In this document: piece by piece, positions 25,891 to 39,952 of the stretch
Layout of the letters: the number at the start of each line of letters is the position of its first letter
Position numbering within the stretch: the first letter of the stretch is position 1
Assembly: GCA_016887485.1 (NCBI GenBank)
Contig: CP069394.1
Coordinates: forward strand, 496,001-560,000
Reading direction: 5' to 3'
Source: Chloroflexota bacterium
Lineage (GTDB): Bacteria; Chloroflexota; Anaerolineae; Anaerolineales; Anaerolineaceae
Length of the DNA stretch: 64,000 nucleotides
Made by a program: the position numbers and the translations under genes
Notes under the pieces: generated by a model
Told to the model about the DNA's origin: nothing
The model's input: only the letters and a program-made list of their open reading frames with translations
Database searches by the model: none

Positions 25891-27003
25891 TTAGCGGACA
25901 GCGATCGGATTATCCGGGTTGGCTTTCGGGTCAAAAATATGCATGTTGGCCATATTGAAGACCACTTTGATATCCTCACCCATGCTCACTCTTGTGCGGG
26001 GGTCCACACGGGCAACAAAATTGTGCTTGCCGTGCATCAGATAGAGGAAGATTTCATTACCCATCAACTCGGTCACATCGACCTTGCAATCCACCGGTTC
26101 TGCGATGATGGATGGCGGGGCATATTCAGGATTGTGGATATCTTCTGGGCGAATGCCGAAGATAACTTCCTGATCCACCATACCTTCATAGACAGCCTGG
26201 CGTTCCTTCGGAACTTTCACTTTGAAGCTATCGAGGTCAACAAACAAATCGTTGCCTTCTTTGACCAGCTTGCCATCGAAGAAGTTCATGGAAGGTGAGC
26301 CAATGAAGCCCGCAACAAACAAATTGGCGGGGAAGTCATATAGCTGTTGGGGGGTGTCTAATTGCTGTAAAACACCTTTATTGAGAACCGCGATCCGGGT
26401 TGCCATGGTCATAGCTTCCGTTTGGTCGTGGGTCACATAAATGAAGGTGGTTTCCAGACGTTTGTGCAGCTTGCTGATCTGGGCACGTGTCTGAACACGC
26501 AGCTTGGCATCCAGGTTAGAGAGCGGTTCGTCGAAGAGGAACACTTTTGGTTCGCGAACGATGGCACGGCCGACAGCTACACGCTGGCGCTGACCACCGG
26601 AGAGTTCACGGGGTTTCCTGTTCAAAAGCTGCTCAATACCGAGGATCTTGGCGGCCTCTTCCACTTTGGTCTTGATCTCGTCTTTGGGGGTTTTGCGGAG
26701 TTTCAAGCCAAATGCCATGTTGTCAAAGACAGACATGTGCGGGTAGAGGGCGTAGGACTGGAAGACCATAGCGATGTCGCGGTCTTTGGGGGCCACGTCA
26801 TTGACGACCTGGTCGCCAATGCGCACATCACCTTCGGTCACTTCTTCGAGCCCTGCGAGGCATCGCAATGCTGTCGTTTTGCCGCAGCCAGAAGGCCCGA
26901 CCAGGACAAGGAATTCCTTGTCTTCGACTTGGATGCACAGGTCGTTCAGCGCTATGACATCGCCGAACTTTTTCCATACATGATCGTACGTTACACTTGC
27001 CAT
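25891..27003 (-). CDS. Sugar ABC transporter ATPase (MalK/UgpC/MsmK type)
   Basis: The 370-residue protein has an ABC domain with Walker A GPSGCGKTTALR, Q loop, signature LSGGQRQRVAVGRA, Walker B VFLFDEPLSNLDAKLR and the switch His in YVTHDQTEA. A C-terminal regulatory/OB (TOBE) region from about 240 includes FGIRPEDIHNPEY. This is the CUT1 carbohydrate-importer class. No permease or binding protein is nearby, so it is probably a shared ATPase like MsmK serving several importers. The start is the ATG after GGAGGAAC; an ATG 13 codons upstream lies inside the -10 promoter element. Confidence 0.9.
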   Translation of the reverse strand: MASVTYDHVWKKFGDVIALNDLCIQVEDKEFLVLVGPSGCGKTTALRCLAGLEEVTEGDVRIGDQVVNDVAPKDRDIAMVFQSYALYPHMSVFDNMAFGLKLRKTPKDEIKTKVEEAAKILGIEQLLNRKPRELSGGQRQRVAVGRAIVREPKVFLFDEPLSNLDAKLRVQTRAQISKLHKRLETTFIYVTHDQTEAMTMATRIAVLNKGVLQQLDTPQQLYDFPANLFVAGFIGSPSMNFFDGKLVKEGNDLFVDLDSFKVKVPKERQAVYEGMVDQEVIFGIRPEDIHNPEYAPPSIIAEPVDCKVDVTELMGNEIFLYLMHGKHNFVARVDPRTRVSMGEDIKVVFNMANMHIFDPKANPDNPIAVR

Positions 27004-27040
27004 AAAAATGTTCCTCCAATCTGAAAAGTTTAGTGGCTCC

Positions 27041-27049
27041 ATTATACCA
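27041..27049 (-). promoter_or_regulatory. Extended -10 promoter of the ABC ATPase gene
   Basis: On the minus strand TGGTATAAT lies about 40 bases before the chosen start. An inverted repeat GTTAGA-N3-TCTAAC at 27078-27092 lies just upstream and may be a sugar-responsive operator. Confidence 0.55.
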
Positions 27050-28887: not shown

Positions 28888-29781
28888 CTACTTATTATCT
28901 ATTAAACCGGCCCCAATCGCAAGTTCTTGCATTTCGCGAGTAATTTTTCGCTTTCGTTCAATATTTAGTTCCCGGTTGAGGTTGGTGATAATGTCATCTG
29001 AATTCTTCTTGGCCTCCTCCATCAGGAGGAAACGAGAGGAATGTTCGGCAATAGCTGATTCTAATAATGCCCGATAGAAGGTGGATGCGATGAAATGGGC
29101 CTTGATCTGGTCATAAATGCCCTGTGGATCGGTTTCTATGATGGGTGGCGGCCAGGGCAGGTCAGCAGTAATTTCTGATGTACCCTGGTCGGTCAGGTCG
29201 AATGGCAATAAAGTGGTTTTGGCAAATTGGATTTGTCCATCGCCATTTTTCTGCTGGTACAAGACGGTTAATTGATCGAATTTGCCTTCCTCAAATTTAA
29301 CAATCCATTGCTGCGTGGTCAAATAAGCCCGTCGGTAAGAATTCAGGAAGTCTGAATCCAGCATAACTGACCAATCCGGTGTCAAACCACTTGCTTTTAG
29401 CGCGTGGTTCATCCGTGAGCCAATGGCCCAGATTTGAGCAGGTGGGGTGGGCTGCTCCTCCATCCATTCTTTGGCGTCCGCAACCAGGTTTTCATTAAAT
29501 TTACCGCACAGTCCCCGCTCAGTGCCAATCAGCAAGGCGATGTTTCTGCCTGCCGCATCCACCTGTTGATGTATACTTTTTGGCTTACCGTATTTTGCGG
29601 TTAGTGGGGAGACCTGTCTGAGGATTTGGCGGTAATTTTCCTGAAAATCCGCCAGCCGGTTGAGTTTATTTTGGGCCATTTGCCAGGTGCCCATTGATAT
29701 AGTCCGCAACGCGCCTAAGAGAGGCTCAATAGCCTGCAGATTACTCAACCTGGCAACGATCCTCTCGTACGACTGGCTCAT
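28888..29781 (-). CDS. atpG: N-type F-ATPase subunit gamma
   Basis: This is the central rotor shaft of F1. The 297 residues have the N-terminal helix of gamma (MSQSYERIVARLSNLQAIEP), the middle IGTERGLCGKFNENL segment and the C-terminal coiled-coil helix (ALLESAIAEHSSRFLLMEEAKKN ... NIERKRKITREMQEL, each part within known gamma patterns). It is the last ATPase gene of the operon and is separated from atpA by the PII-like gene. The sequence is rather divergent, as N-type gamma subunits are. Confidence 0.92.
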   Translation of the reverse strand: MSQSYERIVARLSNLQAIEPLLGALRTISMGTWQMAQNKLNRLADFQENYRQILRQVSPLTAKYGKPKSIHQQVDAAGRNIALLIGTERGLCGKFNENLVADAKEWMEEQPTPPAQIWAIGSRMNHALKASGLTPDWSVMLDSDFLNSYRRAYLTTQQWIVKFEEGKFDQLTVLYQQKNGDGQIQFAKTTLLPFDLTDQGTSEITADLPWPPPIIETDPQGIYDQIKAHFIASTFYRALLESAIAEHSSRFLLMEEAKKNSDDIITNLNRELNIERKRKITREMQELAIGAGLIDNK

Positions 29782-30108: not shown

Positions 30109-31784
30109 TGGCTCGCACCTTTCTCTTGCAACCAGGCCTGGCTGAATTCATCCAGTGCCCGGGTCAACTGTTCTTCAATCGTGTCAGTCAACTCACCTTC
30201 ATTTTCAATCTCGTCCATCAGCTTGGTTTCATGTTCAATGAAATGATAGGCGAGTTTATTTTTGAATTTCGCCATCTGCCGCAGGGGCATCCTGTCCAGA
30301 TAGCCATGATTGAGCGCATAGAGGATCACCACTGTACCCGCAAAGGTGATCGGTTCATGCGGTTTCTGTTTCAGGACGGCCAAAATCTTTTGGCCTTTTT
30401 GAATTTGTTTGCGAGTGGCTTCGTCAACCTCTGTGCCAAAACGGGTGAAATGCTCCACTTCCTGATATTGGGAAAGTTCAAGTTTCAGGTCGCCTACCAG
30501 ATTTCGGATGGCGGGTCTTTGAGCCGCTCCGCCCACTCGAGAGACAGACCGGCCGATATCAATGGCGGGTTTCCGTCCCTGGTTGAACAGGTTGGTATCC
30601 AGCACGATTTGACCATCAGTGATGGAGATCAGGTTGGTGGGGATGTAGCCGGAGATGTTGCCGTTTTGTGTTGTAGCAATTGGCAGCGCTGTGATCGAGC
30701 CGCCACCCTCACTTTGATCCAACTTGCAGGCCCTTTCCAGTAGGCGGGAATGCAGGTAGAAGATGTCGCCCGGGTAGGCTTCACGGCCAGGTGGGCGGCG
30801 AAGAAGCAGGCTGAGTTCTCGATAGGCATCGGCATGTTTGGTTAGGTCATCAAAGACCACCAGGACATCCATGCCCAGATCGAGGAAATATTCCGCCAGG
30901 GTCATGCCGGCATAGGGTGCAAGATAACGCAGGGCGGGCTGGTCATCGGGACTGCTGAGGAGGACAGCTGTGCGTTCCAGCATCTCGTGCTTTCGCAGGG
31001 TTTGGATAACTGATAGGGTAGATGATTTCTTTTGACCGATGGCAACATAAATGCATCGGACATCGCTCTGTTTTTGGCTGAGGATGGCATCAATTGCCAG
31101 GGTGGTTTTCCCGGTCTGCCGGTCACCGAGGATCAGTTCCCGCTGACCGCGGCCAATGGGGAACAGAGTATCAATCAACTTCGTGCCGGTGAAAAGGGAT
31201 TCATTTACTGGAGAGCGTTCAATCACCCCATGGGCCACCCGAGAAAGGAAACGATATTCACTGACTTCAATCGGAGCGTCTTTTACTAAGGGATTACCCA
31301 AAGGATCGATAACTCTTCCCAAAAAAGCGCTTCCAACCGGGATTCTCAGGCGGTCGCCGGTAGCTTGGACGAGGTCTCCACCTCGGATGCCTTTCTCAGA
31401 ACCCAACATGATCAGATCAACACTTTTTTGTTCCAGGTTGAGCGCCATGCCTTCAACCCCGGTGGGGAAGGTGACGATCTCGTCAATGCTGACATTGGGC
31501 AAGCCGGAAACTGTAGCAACGCCGTTGCCGATGTGCTGCACGGTGCCAACATCACGAAAACGCACCCGGCTGGGAAGGTCGGATGACTTTTCTTCAAGGG
31601 TAGAGATCAGGCTCTTGATCTTCTTCTTGGTCAGGTTCGCGCCGTTCTTGGAGATTTTGTTCCGAACGGATTTTATGAATCCTTCCGTGGAAGGGGTCAG
31701 CCTTGAGCGGTTTTCTAATTCCTCGGAAAAGCCCTCAAGGTGTTTTCCTAAATCCCGCGGTACCTGGGGATCACTGCTTTCCAT
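30105..31784 (-). CDS. atpA: N-type F-ATPase subunit alpha
   Basis: This is the non-catalytic nucleotide-binding subunit of F1. The chosen ATG (MESSDPQVPR) follows GGAGG by nine bases and gives 559 residues; an ATG ten codons further up lacks a ribosome site. Walker A is GDRQTGKTTLAIDAIL, the Walker B region is VLVVFDDLTKHADAYREL, and the alpha signature PAIDIGRSVSRVGGAAQ is complete. About 70 residues precede the RDVGTVQHIGNGVATVSG barrel, more than in standard alpha. That helical extension is typical of the divergent N-ATPase group. It overlaps atpF by 14 bases. Confidence 0.95.
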   Translation of the reverse strand: MESSDPQVPRDLGKHLEGFSEELENRSRLTPSTEGFIKSVRNKISKNGANLTKKKIKSLISTLEEKSSDLPSRVRFRDVGTVQHIGNGVATVSGLPNVSIDEIVTFPTGVEGMALNLEQKSVDLIMLGSEKGIRGGDLVQATGDRLRIPVGSAFLGRVIDPLGNPLVKDAPIEVSEYRFLSRVAHGVIERSPVNESLFTGTKLIDTLFPIGRGQRELILGDRQTGKTTLAIDAILSQKQSDVRCIYVAIGQKKSSTLSVIQTLRKHEMLERTAVLLSSPDDQPALRYLAPYAGMTLAEYFLDLGMDVLVVFDDLTKHADAYRELSLLLRRPPGREAYPGDIFYLHSRLLERACKLDQSEGGGSITALPIATTQNGNISGYIPTNLISITDGQIVLDTNLFNQGRKPAIDIGRSVSRVGGAAQRPAIRNLVGDLKLELSQYQEVEHFTRFGTEVDEATRKQIQKGQKILAVLKQKPHEPITFAGTVVILYALNHGYLDRMPLRQMAKFKNKLAYHFIEHETKLMDEIENEGELTDTIEEQLTRALDEFSQAWLQEKGASQ

Positions 31785-32556
31785 CAAGGTTTTCCTCCAG
31801 GGCAGCAGCGACATCTGATTTCAATTCAGACAATTCCATCGCAAGCGTATTTTCAACCACAAGATCACCCATCCGGACTCGGATGCCGGTGATCAATTTG
31901 GGATCAATATTGATCTCCATATTGACATTGCTATCCGCCAGCGCACTGAAAGTACGGATGAGGTTGCGCTGCTGGTCAGGGGTCAATTCCTTGGCAGAGG
32001 TCACGAACACGGTGGGTGTACGGCCTGCCAGGGATTCGCGGATGGCGTGCACCTGCCGCATATCGGTCTTGCCCAGTTCCCAAATTTCATGAGTCAACTC
32101 ATCAATGAAGTTGTCGTGAATGACATCGGGCGCAGCTTTGGCAAGCACCTGACCGGAGATGTCGAGGATTGAATTGACCAATTCGTCCTGCAGTTGCGCG
32201 ACCTCCTGCTGCTGGCGTTTTTGCGCCTCACGCTCCGCTTCTCCGAGGATATGTTCTGCCTCAAGATGCGTGGCTTCCAAGAGTGTTTTACTTTGTTCCT
32301 GAGCCTTTTGGTAGGCTTCCTGAAGCCGGTCATCAATTTCGGAATCAATAGCTGCCAGCCGCTGGTTGATCTCTTCAAGTTTCAGGGCGGCTTCTGCTTC
32401 TTCCAATCTGGCTTCCTCCAACAGAGCTTCTCTTTCAGCGGCGCGTTCATTCATCCTCTTGACCGTTGGCTTGAAGAGCAAGAAATACAGGACGACCGCA
32501 AGGACAAGGAAGTTTATTACCTGAGCGACGATTGTTACAACATCAAATTCAAGCAT
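31771..32556 (-). CDS. atpF: N-type F-ATPase subunit b with delta-like C domain
   Basis: The protein has 261 residues. One membrane helix (about 8-28, VAQVINFLVLAVVLYFLLF) is followed by a long charged coiled coil (about 35-150) as in b subunits. From about residue 185 the sequence VFVTSAKELTPDQQRNLI ... IDPKLITGIRVRMGDLVVE matches the C domain of the delta/OSCP subunit. The operon has no separate delta gene, so this b-delta fusion should serve as the whole peripheral stalk link to F1. This layout is known for N-ATPases. Confidence 0.9.
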   Translation of the reverse strand: MLEFDVVTIVAQVINFLVLAVVLYFLLFKPTVKRMNERAAEREALLEEARLEEAEAALKLEEINQRLAAIDSEIDDRLQEAYQKAQEQSKTLLEATHLEAEHILGEAEREAQKRQQQEVAQLQDELVNSILDISGQVLAKAAPDVIHDNFIDELTHEIWELGKTDMRQVHAIRESLAGRTPTVFVTSAKELTPDQQRNLIRTFSALADSNVNMEINIDPKLITGIRVRMGDLVVENTLAMELSELKSDVAAALEENLDGKQ

Positions 32557-32588: not shown

Positions 32589-32864
32589 TTATCCAAAGAA
32601 GCGGTCCAACAACGGGTTTCCGAAGATCAGAATCAGCACAACGAGCAATGAATAGATCGCGGTTGATTCCAACAATGCCATCGAGATCAACAGGGTGGTT
32701 CGTAGGTCATTGGCAGAGTCTGGTTGGCGGGTCATGCCTTCCAACGCTTTTTGGACGGCCTTGCCCTCCATCAGCGCCGGGACGACTGAGCCCAGTACGA
32801 TGCCGCCGACGGCAAACATGATGGTGATAAGGGTAATAATGGTTCCAGGGTCTAATTGCCACAT
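32589..32864 (-). CDS. atpE: N-type F-ATPase subunit c (Na+-type rotor)
   Basis: The 91-residue two-helix proteolipid forms the rotor ring. The polar loop is TRQPDSANDL. The outer helix carries Glu66-Ser67-Thr68 and Tyr71 in ALLESTAIYSLL, the Na+-coordinating signature known from Ilyobacter-type c rings. Aligned through the RQP loop, Glu33 takes the place of the helix-1 Gln32 of that site, giving a second carboxylate. Two-carboxylate Na+ sites have been described in Fusobacterium c rings. Na+ coupling is therefore strongly suggested from residues, but not measured. Confidence 0.94.
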   Translation of the reverse strand: MWQLDPGTIITLITIMFAVGGIVLGSVVPALMEGKAVQKALEGMTRQPDSANDLRTTLLISMALLESTAIYSLLVVLILIFGNPLLDRFFG

Positions 32865-32890: not shown

Positions 32891-33577
32891 CTATGATTCC
32901 TTCAATTCTTGTTTCATTTGACGACGCTCTTCTTCAACATCAGCAATTTCAATGGCTGATGCGATATACAGAGACGCTAAAACCGTAAAAATATAAGCCT
33001 GGAGGACACCTGTGAGCATGCCCAGTGCAGCCAGGGGCAGCGGGACGATGAAGGGGATCAGTGAGAAGATGATTGCTACTACCAGGTCCGTGCTGAGAAC
33101 ATTGCCAAACAGACGGATGGTCAGCGAGAGCGTGCGGGAGAGCTGGCTGACAACCTCCAGGGGGAAGACGAAGATTGGAGAGGCTGTATCCTTGATGTAA
33201 TCCCAGAGCCCTTTTTCCCGAACGCCGTAATAATGGACGGCGAAAAAGACTAATACTGACAAGGCAAGGGTTGTGTTGATGTTGGCAGTGGGGGACACCA
33301 TGAATGGGAAGATGCTGAAAATATTTCCTAGAACGAGGAACAAGGCCAAGGTCCCCAGGAAGGGCAAGAACTGGATGACGCGGACATCTTCGGGCATCAC
33401 GGAAGACACGATGCTATTGATCATTTCAATGATGAACTCACCGATATGGGGCGCGAATTTTCTGATGATGATCGCAATGATTATCAGCATCCCCATCATG
33501 ACCCAGGTTGAAACCACCGTGTCAGTGATGGGTAATCCAAAGAGATAGAATACGACCTGGGGGGCTATCGCCTCCAT
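32891..33577 (-). CDS. atpB: N-type F-ATPase subunit a
   Basis: This 228-residue stator membrane subunit has five to six helices and forms the ion half-channels. The essential arginine lies in SLTIRLFGNVLS (about residue 150). FLPFLGTLALFLVLGNIFSI precedes it as in other a subunits. The C-terminal helix pair is VLQAYIFTVLASLYIASAIE. It is shorter than E. coli subunit a, as in N-ATPases. The gene sits between atpR and atpE. Confidence 0.93.
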   Translation of the reverse strand: MEAIAPQVVFYLFGLPITDTVVSTWVMMGMLIIIAIIIRKFAPHIGEFIIEMINSIVSSVMPEDVRVIQFLPFLGTLALFLVLGNIFSIFPFMVSPTANINTTLALSVLVFFAVHYYGVREKGLWDYIKDTASPIFVFPLEVVSQLSRTLSLTIRLFGNVLSTDLVVAIIFSLIPFIVPLPLAALGMLTGVLQAYIFTVLASLYIASAIEIADVEEERRQMKQELKES

Positions 33578-33583
33578 ATAAAA

Positions 33584-33895
33584 TCAGTCCTTTTTACTAT
33601 TGTTTTGACTTGCAGTTAGCCGCCAACGTTTTTCCCATGTTGCCAGGATGACCAAGCGGGTGATCATGAATGCTGCAAAGACGACCAGGCCTGCAGCAGG
33701 TGAACGCCTGAGCGCTATGATGAGAACGAGAGCGATGAGTACCCAACGAACCACCATGCCGCCAAGGATCAGAATTTGACTGGCGACGGGTTTGTCCGGT
33801 GAAATCTGCTGAACCGACCATCTCTGCATCCAGAGGAAGGCCAGGGCTGTTCCAATCCCCAGAAGAATCCACAAGGGCCATTCAAACCAGTTCAT
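33584..33895 (-). CDS. atpR: N-ATPase accessory membrane subunit AtpR
   Basis: This 103-residue protein has three hydrophobic helices (about 8-25, 40-62, 67-87). Arginines lie within or at the edge of helices (VVRWVLIALVLIIALRR and ITRLVI). AtpR is a hallmark of N-type ATPases; its membrane arginines were proposed to interact with the c-ring carboxylates during assembly. Assignment is by size, topology, arginines and position between atpQ and atpB. The start overlaps atpQ by four bases. Confidence 0.85.
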   Translation of the reverse strand: MNWFEWPLWILLGIGTALAFLWMQRWSVQQISPDKPVASQILILGGMVVRWVLIALVLIIALRRSPAAGLVVFAAFMITRLVILATWEKRWRLTASQNNSKKD

Positions 33896-34170
33896 TGGTT
33901 GGAACTCTCCTTTTGGTGTTTCTTCTGGACTCTGAGCAGTAGCATCTCGAACTCAATGTGCCGTACTAAATTGTAATATCCCACACCAATGCCGATAAAA
34001 GTCAGGATCAGCATGAATGTAATGGATGAATTTGTTGCTTTATCGATGAGGTGCCCCAGATAAGCGCCGGCGAAAATCGGAATCGCCAATTCCCATCCCA
34101 GAGAGGTCTTTGCGAAGTCTCTGATCAGAGCGCTCTTTTTTGTTCCTGGCTCGTCATCTTTATGGTTCAT
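33892..34170 (-). CDS. atpQ: AtpQ / AtpI-AtpZ-like membrane protein
   Basis: The 92 residues include a charged N-terminal segment and two transmembrane helices (about 28-45 and 50-70). The motif GWELAIPIFAGAYLGHLID resembles AtpI/AtpZ proteins, which assist c-ring assembly or Mg2+ handling. Position directly after the epsilon gene matches AtpQ of the atpDCQRBEFAG order. It overlaps both neighbours by four bases, so the set is translationally coupled. Confidence 0.85.
   Translation of the reverse strand: MNHKDDEPGTKKSALIRDFAKTSLGWELAIPIFAGAYLGHLIDKATNSSITFMLILTFIGIGVGYYNLVRHIEFEMLLLRVQKKHQKESSNQ

Positions 34171-34525: not shown

Positions 34526-34526
<1 letters not shown>
34167..34526 (-). 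CDS. atpC: N-type F-ATPase subunit epsilon
   Basis: The 119-residue subunit is mainly the N-terminal beta-sandwich: LTLRVLSPDGPSLEVEHL, GIRPKHAPLIAETIRGTIQ and ILSIRDNIVTILS. The inhibitory C-terminal helical hairpin is short or partial (DPFDQLTEAFQEEN). Its ATG overlaps the atpD stop (TGATG). Epsilon couples F1 to the c ring and may inhibit ATP hydrolysis. Confidence 0.9.
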
Positions 34527-36007
<1,481 letters not shown>

Positions 36008-38314: not shown

Positions 38315-39952
38315 TTACTCGGAAACGACCTTTAGCCAATGATAGGCAAGCGGCTCAAGAGTGATTGGGTAGGGCGCTGCGGAAATGGCTGGGAAGGCCG
38401 CATCACTGAGAATATCTACAGGTTGGCATCCCTGCCAGGAGGCTAAATCCAGTTTGATCTCCTGCTGCTGGTCAGATAGGTTCAGGATGCAGATCATATC
38501 TTCATCATCCAGGCTGCGGTGAATGGTCAGGACCTGTTCAATATCCGATGCCAGGAATTCATAGCTACCCATGGCAAGGATCGGGTTATCTTTTCTGGTG
38601 TGAACCAGATGCTTCATTTTGGAAAGCAATGAGTCAGGGTCTTTTTCTTCGGCGGCCACATTGACGATTCTATAGGAATACTTTTTATCCGTGATAACAG
38701 GCACGTAAAGCATCTCCGTGGGGGTTTCGGAAAAACCTGCATTCAAACCGGCATTCCATTGCATCGGTGTTCGCACCCCATTTCGGTCCGGCAGCCAGAT
38801 ATTATCGCCCATGCCAATTTCGTCCCCATAATAGATGATCGGTGCGCCGGGCAGAGAATAGAGCAGGGCGTTGGCCAGCATGATCTTGCGGTGGTCGTTA
38901 TCCATCAAGGGTGCTAACCGGCGGCGAATCCCCAGGTTCAAACGCATCCGGGGTTGCGGTGCATATTCCTCCCACATCCACTGGCGTTCATCTTCAGTAA
39001 CCATTTCAAGGGTCAGCTCATCATGGTTGCGGAGGAAAGTGCACCACTGGGTGCCTTCCGGGATATCCGGTGTTTGGGACATGATCCAGCGGATAGGGGT
39101 GGTATCGCCTTTCTTGATCGCCATATAGATCCGGGGCATGACCGGGAAGTGAAAGCCCATATTAAACTCGTCACCGTTACCAAAATAGGTGCGGACGTCC
39201 TTGGGCCATTGGTTTGCTTCGGCTAGGAGAACTTTATCTTGAAAGTTTGCATCGATATAGGTCCGAATTGATTTTAGAATCTGGTGGGTTTCGGGTAAGT
39301 TTTCACAGTTGGTGCCTTCCCGCTCAATCAGATAAGGGACGGCATCCGCCCGGAAACCATCAATGCCCATATCCAGCCAGAATTTCATCACATTGAGCAT
39401 TTCTTCCCGGACGTCCGGATTATCATAATTCAGGTCGGGTTGAGAGGCATAAAATCGGTGCCAATAGTATTGGCCGGCTTCTTCATCGTAGGTCCAGTTA
39501 GATTCCTCGGTGTCGAGGAAGATGATCCGCGCGTCACTGTATTTATCTTTGTTATCTGACCAGACGTAATAATCGTGATATTTTGAGCTGGGGTCCGAAC
39601 GCGCCGCCTGAAACCAGGGGTGTTGGTCGGAGGTGTGGTTCAGTACGAGATCGGCGATGACTTTGAGGCCGCGTTGGTGGGCTTTCTGGACCAGCTTCTT
39701 AAAATCCTCAATCGTGCCGTAATCTGAGTGGATGTTGTAATAATTCGCGATGTCATAGCCATCATCCTTCAAAGGAGATGGATAAATTGGCAGCACCCAG
39801 ACGCAATCAACGCCCAGTTCCTTTATGTAATCCAGTTTGGAAATCAAACCTGGTAAATCCCCGTTGCCATCCGCGTTTGAATCGCGATAAGCCCTGACAT
39901 GGACTTCATAAAATGTGGCATTCATATACCAGGGATGCTTCTTCGCCGTCAT
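38315..39952 (-). CDS. treS: Trehalose synthase / maltose alpha-D-glucosyltransferase
   Basis: The 545-residue GH13 enzyme interconverts maltose and trehalose. The start YMNATFYEVHVRAYRDSN with DGNGDLPGL and the DDGYDIANYY segment are typical of TreS. Catalytic residues are the Asp in GFRADAVPYL, the Glu in LLAEANQWP and the Asp in FLRNHDELT. A GH13 C-terminal beta domain follows. No maltokinase domain is fused. The ATG follows AGGAGGG. It lies alone between the DUF389 and polymerase genes; trehalose may serve as an osmolyte or glycogen-pathway intermediate. Confidence 0.92.
   Translation of the reverse strand: MTAKKHPWYMNATFYEVHVRAYRDSNADGNGDLPGLISKLDYIKELGVDCVWVLPIYPSPLKDDGYDIANYYNIHSDYGTIEDFKKLVQKAHQRGLKVIADLVLNHTSDQHPWFQAARSDPSSKYHDYYVWSDNKDKYSDARIIFLDTEESNWTYDEEAGQYYWHRFYASQPDLNYDNPDVREEMLNVMKFWLDMGIDGFRADAVPYLIEREGTNCENLPETHQILKSIRTYIDANFQDKVLLAEANQWPKDVRTYFGNGDEFNMGFHFPVMPRIYMAIKKGDTTPIRWIMSQTPDIPEGTQWCTFLRNHDELTLEMVTEDERQWMWEEYAPQPRMRLNLGIRRRLAPLMDNDHRKIMLANALLYSLPGAPIIYYGDEIGMGDNIWLPDRNGVRTPMQWNAGLNAGFSETPTEMLYVPVITDKKYSYRIVNVAAEEKDPDSLLSKMKHLVHTRKDNPILAMGSYEFLASDIEQVLTIHRSLDDEDMICILNLSDQQQEIKLDLASWQGCQPVDILSDAAFPAISAAPYPITLEPLAYHWLKVVSE

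Follow-up and report, generated by a model that had tools for sequence, protein, structure and literature searches.

The subunit c gene at the positions shown above belongs to a ten-gene operon on the minus strand of the window (the whole 64,000-nucleotide stretch of Chloroflexota DNA analysed here). The gene order is beta-epsilon-Q-R-a-c-(b delta)-alpha-X-gamma (Table 1), and the additional gene between alpha and gamma, termed X, encodes a PII-like protein of the DarA/PstA receptor family. The enzyme is best read, from its sequence, as an N-ATPase-like and probably Na+-type rotary ATPase with an additional operon gene. Since the operon holds a conserved relative of second-messenger receptors, an ATP-driven pump with its own signal-sensing regulator was suggested. 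As the explanation of the whole, an N-like ATPase of the Na+ type that carries its own PII-like, nucleotide-sensing regulator was cautiously favoured.

Table 1. Genes of the rotary ATPase operon and their positions in the window.
Gene	Product	Position	Strand	Evidence or feature
atpD	subunit beta	34526..36001	-	ORF and profile matches
atpC	short subunit epsilon, 119 aa	34167..34526	-	Pfam matches beta-sandwich domain only
atpQ-type gene		33892..34170	-	PF09527
gene at atpR position		33584..33895	-	PF03899 ATP-synt_I, only match at E <= 0.001
atpB	subunit a	32891..33577	-	ORF and profile match
atpE	subunit c, 91 aa	32589..32864	-	two-carboxylate Na+-type site E33 / E66-S67-T68 / Y71
atpF	fused b-delta	31771..32556	-	ATP-synt_B and OSCP C-terminal part in one ORF
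atpA	subunit alpha, 569 aa	30105..31814	-	best model match begins at residue 64
gene X	PII-like protein, DarA/PstA (CdAMP_rec) family, 106 aa	29788..30108	-	PF06153, fold match
atpG	subunit gamma	28888..29781	-	profile match

The N-ATPase is the alternate F1F0 ATPase of Dibrova et al. 2010, as cited in PMC5376962, PMC4154653, and PMC11738941. Its order was given by ProAD as beta-epsilon-X-X-a-c-(b delta)-alpha-gamma in the notation of that source (PMC11738941), and the window operon followed it apart from the one gene added between alpha and gamma. The operon also resembled N-ATPases in the fusion of delta to b, which left no separate delta gene, in a subunit c that shares the helix-1 Glu and EST...Y with that of Picosynechococcus, and in the coexistence with another rotary ATPase in the same genome. 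The AtpR domain is named as pfam12966 in PMC4154653; the match of the gene at the atpR position is given in Table 1. The differences from N-ATPases were the presence of X, the position of the alpha subunit, and the scores against the NCBI models. None of the six NCBI alternate F1F0 models passed its cut-off for the window operon in a scan run without a classical N enzyme as control (bits/cut-off: alpha 599.2/750.5, beta 581.8/752, gamma 85.2/282.35, b 108/224.7, c 77.5/130.85, a 151.1/302.1). The alpha tree was unrooted and contained 34 rows, including 19 rows from X operons, with the 180-aa row L195 (Acetoanaerobium) left out. Branch supports were 99/98 for the X rows, 97/92 for the classical N rows, and 100/99 for the F-type rows. 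The window alpha was placed outside the classical N group in this tree, in which a sister relation of the two is possible.

The first-pass annotation had read Glu66-Ser67-Thr68...Tyr71 in helix 2 of subunit c and had set Glu33 of helix 1 at the Gln32 position (Gln32/Glu32 in known rings), and both readings were confirmed by the minus-strand translation and by alignment. The reading frame ran from 32864 to 32589, several stops were found in frame 1 of the plus strand, and the product matched PF00137 with 47.1 bits against a cut-off of 24. Residues E33, E66, S67, T68, and Y71 were read directly from the translation. The HMMER alignment with the two-carboxylate c ring of Fusobacterium nucleatum (3zk1; PMC3692424) ran without gaps from the first helix over the RQP loop into the second, which placed E33 on the helix-1 Glu and E66-S67-T68..Y71 on the ESTxxY of that ring. 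Since E33, E66, and Y71 were invariant in 17/17 aligned c sequences (the window and 16 relatives), the motif was not due to chance; a chance motif or a misread frame was rejected on the open reading frame, the PF00137 match, and the gap-free alignment together. The two rings differed in the glycine pattern of helix 1, which is GLGPGIGEG in Fusobacterium and is replaced by SVVPALMEG in the window; the ring size may therefore differ from 11. Viral copies of subunit c were also considered, and the 44 pattern matches contained no relatives.

In the Fusobacterium site, the side chains of Glu65, Glu32, and Ser66, the carbonyl of Val63, and a water that also meets Thr67 are described, with Tyr70 as a donor (PMC3692424). 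Every one of these side chains was present in the window subunit c, with Leu64 in place of Val63. By analogy, E66 would be the ion carboxylate, with the side chains of S67 and E33 and the carbonyl of L64 as ligands; T68 would hold the water, and Y71 would be the hydrogen-bond donor. Protonated E33 would behave like Gln: the extra Glu of the Fusobacterium ring has been argued to be constitutively protonated and energetically like, or largely equivalent to, Gln (PMC3692424, Schulz 2013), and the pH effect in E. coli mutants was interpreted differently by Schulz 2013, as described in PMC3692424. In addition, the N-type c17 ring of Burkholderia pseudomallei, with two carboxylates and with Thr62/Met63 at the hydroxyl positions, was measured to be H+-specific (PMC5376962). 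Because the second Glu is argued to resemble Gln and a two-carboxylate ring can be H+-specific, Na+ coupling in the window enzyme would rest on S67/T68 and not on E33. The earlier claim that two carboxylates alone alter ion affinity and pH response was not upheld by the argument in PMC3692424 and the ring described in PMC5376962.

The annotation's prediction of a Na+ enzyme was retained on other grounds, namely the complete set of Na+ side-chain ligands, the N-ATPase-like operon, and a gene of the decarboxylase beta family; its reliance on the second carboxylate, which does not discriminate, was given up. All eight genomes tested, the window's genome included, encoded a protein of the Na+-translocating decarboxylase beta family. 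A match to RnfD/NqrB was found in none of these eight genomes, and a membrane pyrophosphatase was found in 8/8, a match that is irrespective of ion type. Judged from its residues, the ring is most likely Na+-type under cell conditions. The alternative, rather unlikely in our estimate, is an H+-coupled enzyme like that of Burkholderia, in which the two carboxylates and the hydroxyls merely form a hydrogen-bond network. The H+-specific two-carboxylate ring is itself a precedent, and the 1807 N-ATPases in ProAD were divided almost evenly between 893 H+ and 914 Na+ predictions (PMC11738941). The same source reports a single H+-predicted N-type enzyme in 18/20 genomes of the Chloroflexota genus T78, so N-type enzymes of Chloroflexota are not all of the Na+ type. 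Against H+ coupling, the window has the full Ser/Thr set of Na+ rings, whereas Burkholderia has Thr62/Met63.

The variation of the site among relatives also bears on both readings. A wider set of 52 c sequences was compared (51 loci and the window), many of the loci sharing a genome with one of the 16 relatives. Position 33 was Glu in 46 and Gln in 6 sequences; the exact set E33/E66/S67/T68/Y71 was present in 26/52, and Glu33 with Ser/Thr67, Thr68, and Tyr71 in 31/52. The helix-1 Glu with ESTAIY was also found in the c subunit of the plasmid N-ATPase of the cyanobacterium Picosynechococcus, in two Chloroflexota operons grouped with classical N by the alpha tree, and in a relative without X (L199). 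The comparison with c subunits of other N-ATPases, named as a check in the first-pass annotation, thus recovered the same motif in the Picosynechococcus enzyme and showed that it is not special to the window's genome. The two-glutamate c motif is ordinary for N-type enzymes and is not new.

Position 68 was the variable one. Of the 50 relatives' genomes examined, 18 had Ala or Gly there, with a single c gene found in 17 of them; the other 32 had Thr or Ser, with two or three c genes in 26. The frequent loss of Thr68 where one c gene was found speaks for H+ coupling, and the company that Thr/Ser68 keeps with a second c gene speaks against it. With the window included, at least two c genes were found in 27/33 genomes with Thr/Ser68 versus 1/18 with Ala/Gly68 (Fisher p 1e-7 by raw count). 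On the tree, this became three independent pairs, of which on average 1.9 went in the same direction and 1.1 showed no difference (median p 0.5), so the association was not significant once relatedness was considered. A tie between the ion-site Thr and the number of c genes is suggestive. These counts come from draft genomes, which may miss genes: a single c gene was found in 23/50 relatives' genomes. Two single-c genomes have a listed completeness of 98% (G014) and 97% (G362), and the search found zero c genes in a genome of the same genus as the latter that is 99% complete (G404). The clade offers a natural series, with the ion-site Thr present in some members and absent in others, for studying shifts in ion specificity.

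The window's genome carried two c genes, atpE and one in the operon of a second rotary ATPase (L068:5014-12307). The order of the second operon was beta-epsilon-Q-a-c-(b delta)-alpha-gamma, without X and without R. In its subunit c, the helix-1 residue was Gln and the helix-2 motif ESLxxY, and its alpha joined the F-type rows with a support of 97/93 in the 34-row tree. The window enzyme may act alongside it as an ATP-driven Na+ pump or as a Na+-driven synthase. A small gene upstream of the second operon resembled an ACT-domain protein when inspected by eye.

The start of X, a gene on which the first-pass annotation is silent, overlapped the end of atpA by 4 bases in the window, and X would be synthesised together with alpha by virtue of this overlap. 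A total of 84,980 species genomes was scanned with the X alignment and two short peptide patterns of X, which yielded 63 named loci, every title being a Chloroflexota taxon; the nearest named records were from Anaerolineaceae (Chloroflexota) and included two with the title Brevefilum sp. The X of Pelolinea submarina (L155, record NZ_AP018437) was 48% identical to that of the window. More distant X arrangements elsewhere would be missed by such a scan because of the short patterns. X was located between atpA and atpG in 61/63 loci. The two exceptions (L187 and L188) were X-like copies that shared the invariant residues of X and had no ATPase gene within the available stretch. The 4-base overlap with atpA was present in 40/61 loci, and atpG started at most 35 bases behind X in 58/61; the ends behind the start distances of L183 (+321) and L189 (-98) seem to have been picked wrongly. 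In the remaining three loci (L141, L143, and L145), atpG started about 8.2 kb behind X. In the first of these (L141:10428-18483), the genes separating X from atpG appeared by eye to encode a LacI-type regulator, a sugar ABC transporter, one or more glycosidases, and an amylase-type enzyme, and the ATPase operons of L143 and L145 were split by a similar spacing.

The linkage also held in genomes that had been selected without regard to X. In a set of 61 (the window's own and 60 relatives), 17 genomes had a strong c match, and 16 of these 17, but no others, had a strong X match. Both were on the same contig in 15 of the 16 genomes and on two contigs in one (G001); in the genome with c and no X (G007), about 1.3 kb of contig remains behind c. 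In a draw of 400 genomes from the phylum, which shared six genomes with the set of 61, strong c and strong X were found in the identical eight genomes and on one contig in 8/8, with score limits that were set after the gap had been seen. Many of the named loci belong to the same genomes as the 61, and the two sets are therefore not independent. The linkage extends across much of Anaerolineae. Four plasmid N operons and the second operon of the window's genus had no X between alpha and gamma, and X was likewise missing from the classical N operon of G022, a genome of the same family, and from the nearest X-less relative, L199. The existence of this relative shows that X is dispensable for an enzyme of this type. 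The alpha tree, which is unrooted, is most simply read as a single gain of X.

X matched PF06153 (CdAMP_rec) with 61.5 bits against a cut-off of 27 and remained below the cut-off of the NCBI DarA equivalog NF058593 (61.7 of 140 bits). The model predicted from 38 aligned sequences had a mean pLDDT of 77.9, with values below 50 at residues 73-83 and of about 66 in the T-loop block 31-40. Its best matches among solved structures were PstA/DarA chains and the related Pediococcus protein PEPE_1480, followed by classical PII. X is a PII-like protein of the DarA/PstA family, with a PII-like fold in the predicted model. The contacts of PstA with c-di-AMP include Thr28, Asn41, Phe36, Leu37, the backbone of Gly47, Phe99, Gln108, and Arg26; substitution of Phe36 or Asn41 with alanine weakens binding, whereas Arg26 is dispensable in the Listeria protein, which has Gly at this position (PMC4316997, PMC4475381). 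In the alignment, X kept Thr28, GG-Leu37, and the Phe (Phe96 in X) of this pocket, together with the GGA...F shared by the family. Among 62 X sequences, T28, G35, and L37 were found in 62/62 and G34 in 61/62. The conservation of GG-L37, F96, and W98 is partly by construction, as these residues sit in the search patterns (GG and L37 in one of the two); T28 belongs to neither pattern. Residues T28, G34, Q39, Q41, F96, and W98 were invariant in all 16 relatives chosen by whole-length similarity. As the pocket residues rank among the most conserved of the protein, retention of the ligand site was suggested.

X differed from DarA/PstA in its place within an ATPase operon, in its conserved Trp98, and at several contact positions, with Gln for Asn41 in 58/62 sequences, Met for Phe36 in 53/62 (Val in 9/62), Thr for Arg26 in 45/62, and Ala for Gly47 in 54/62. 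Two of the PstA contacts with c-di-AMP, Asn41 and Phe36, are missing, and X may accordingly bind another nucleotide or none. Given the weaker binding of PstA after changes of Phe36 or Asn41, and given that the Listeria protein does without Arg26, c-di-AMP is a possible ligand but not an assured one. A diadenylate cyclase was present in 56/61 genomes, including the window's own and all 16 with X, and was common in genomes without X too.

In the proposed mechanism, X would assemble into a PII-like trimer whose subunit interfaces bind an adenine nucleotide (c-di-AMP or a close relative), and the trimer would dock on the ATPase and set its activity or assembly according to the nucleotide or second-messenger state. 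It is a tentative proposal that X serves as a dedicated regulatory subunit, with its PII-like trimer reading c-di-AMP or another adenine nucleotide and directly gating a Na+-type rotary ATPase. Instead, X could be an ordinary receptor of c-di-AMP or a nucleotide whose target lies elsewhere (K+ or osmolyte transport, for instance), its place in the operon serving co-expression alone. Many targets are known for PII-like proteins; four further PF06153 genes of the genome, at least three of them with a GGFL T-loop, are located far from both ATPase operons, and the copies in L187 and L188 keep the invariant residues away from any ATPase gene in the available stretch. We consider this unlikely, as the placement between alpha and gamma in 61/63 loci and the 4-base overlap in 40/61 suggest that the job of X is tied to the ATPase. 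Two tandem pairs of the other PF06153 proteins were seen in this genome (L069:1950-2563 and L070:3701-4323), and one member of each pair was shortened to 87-88 aa, with a TGGFLR motif. The tight linkage of X between two F1 genes would also fit an assembly or expression factor, a translational spacer or chaperone that senses nothing. Such a role is quite improbable, given that T28, G34, and F96 are kept in 16/16 relatives and are among the most conserved residues of the protein.

The possibility that regulation passed to X from a lost helical domain of epsilon was rejected, since the shortening of epsilon is not specific to X operons. The epsilon subunits of the X clade had 76-129 aa in the 25 cases recovered by a motif filter; 19 further ones were missed by the filter, of which 13 showed a short ORF of 87-129 aa and six remained without a call. 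Reference epsilons of classical N, second-operon, and F-type enzymes had 131-162 aa, and the epsilon of the nearest X-less relative had 122 aa. The PF00401 helix domain was found in one of the ten epsilons scanned, an ordinary F-type, and was missing from five X-clade, one X-less, one second-operon, and two classical N epsilons. Judged from these lengths and domains, handed-over regulation may be taken as a weak hint. In many relatives, the X-clade epsilon had 84-92 aa, and some stopped directly after the beta-sandwich domain.

To our knowledge, the targets of the DarA/PstA receptor family are largely unknown, and a search of the open-access literature found no PII-like second-messenger receptor fixed in a rotary ATPase operon. 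If the reading of X as a dedicated regulatory subunit is true, it would supply a target for this family, and the messenger by which many bacteria control their salt and osmotic balance would act directly on an ion-pumping ATPase. A direct link between c-di-AMP and such an ATPase becomes testable with two purified parts. Sugar-related genes were also noticed by eye near the window operon, an amylase/trehalose-synthase-like gene at 38315-39952 and a sugar-type ABC ATPase at 25891-27042, both of the same general kind as the genes found between X and atpG in L141.
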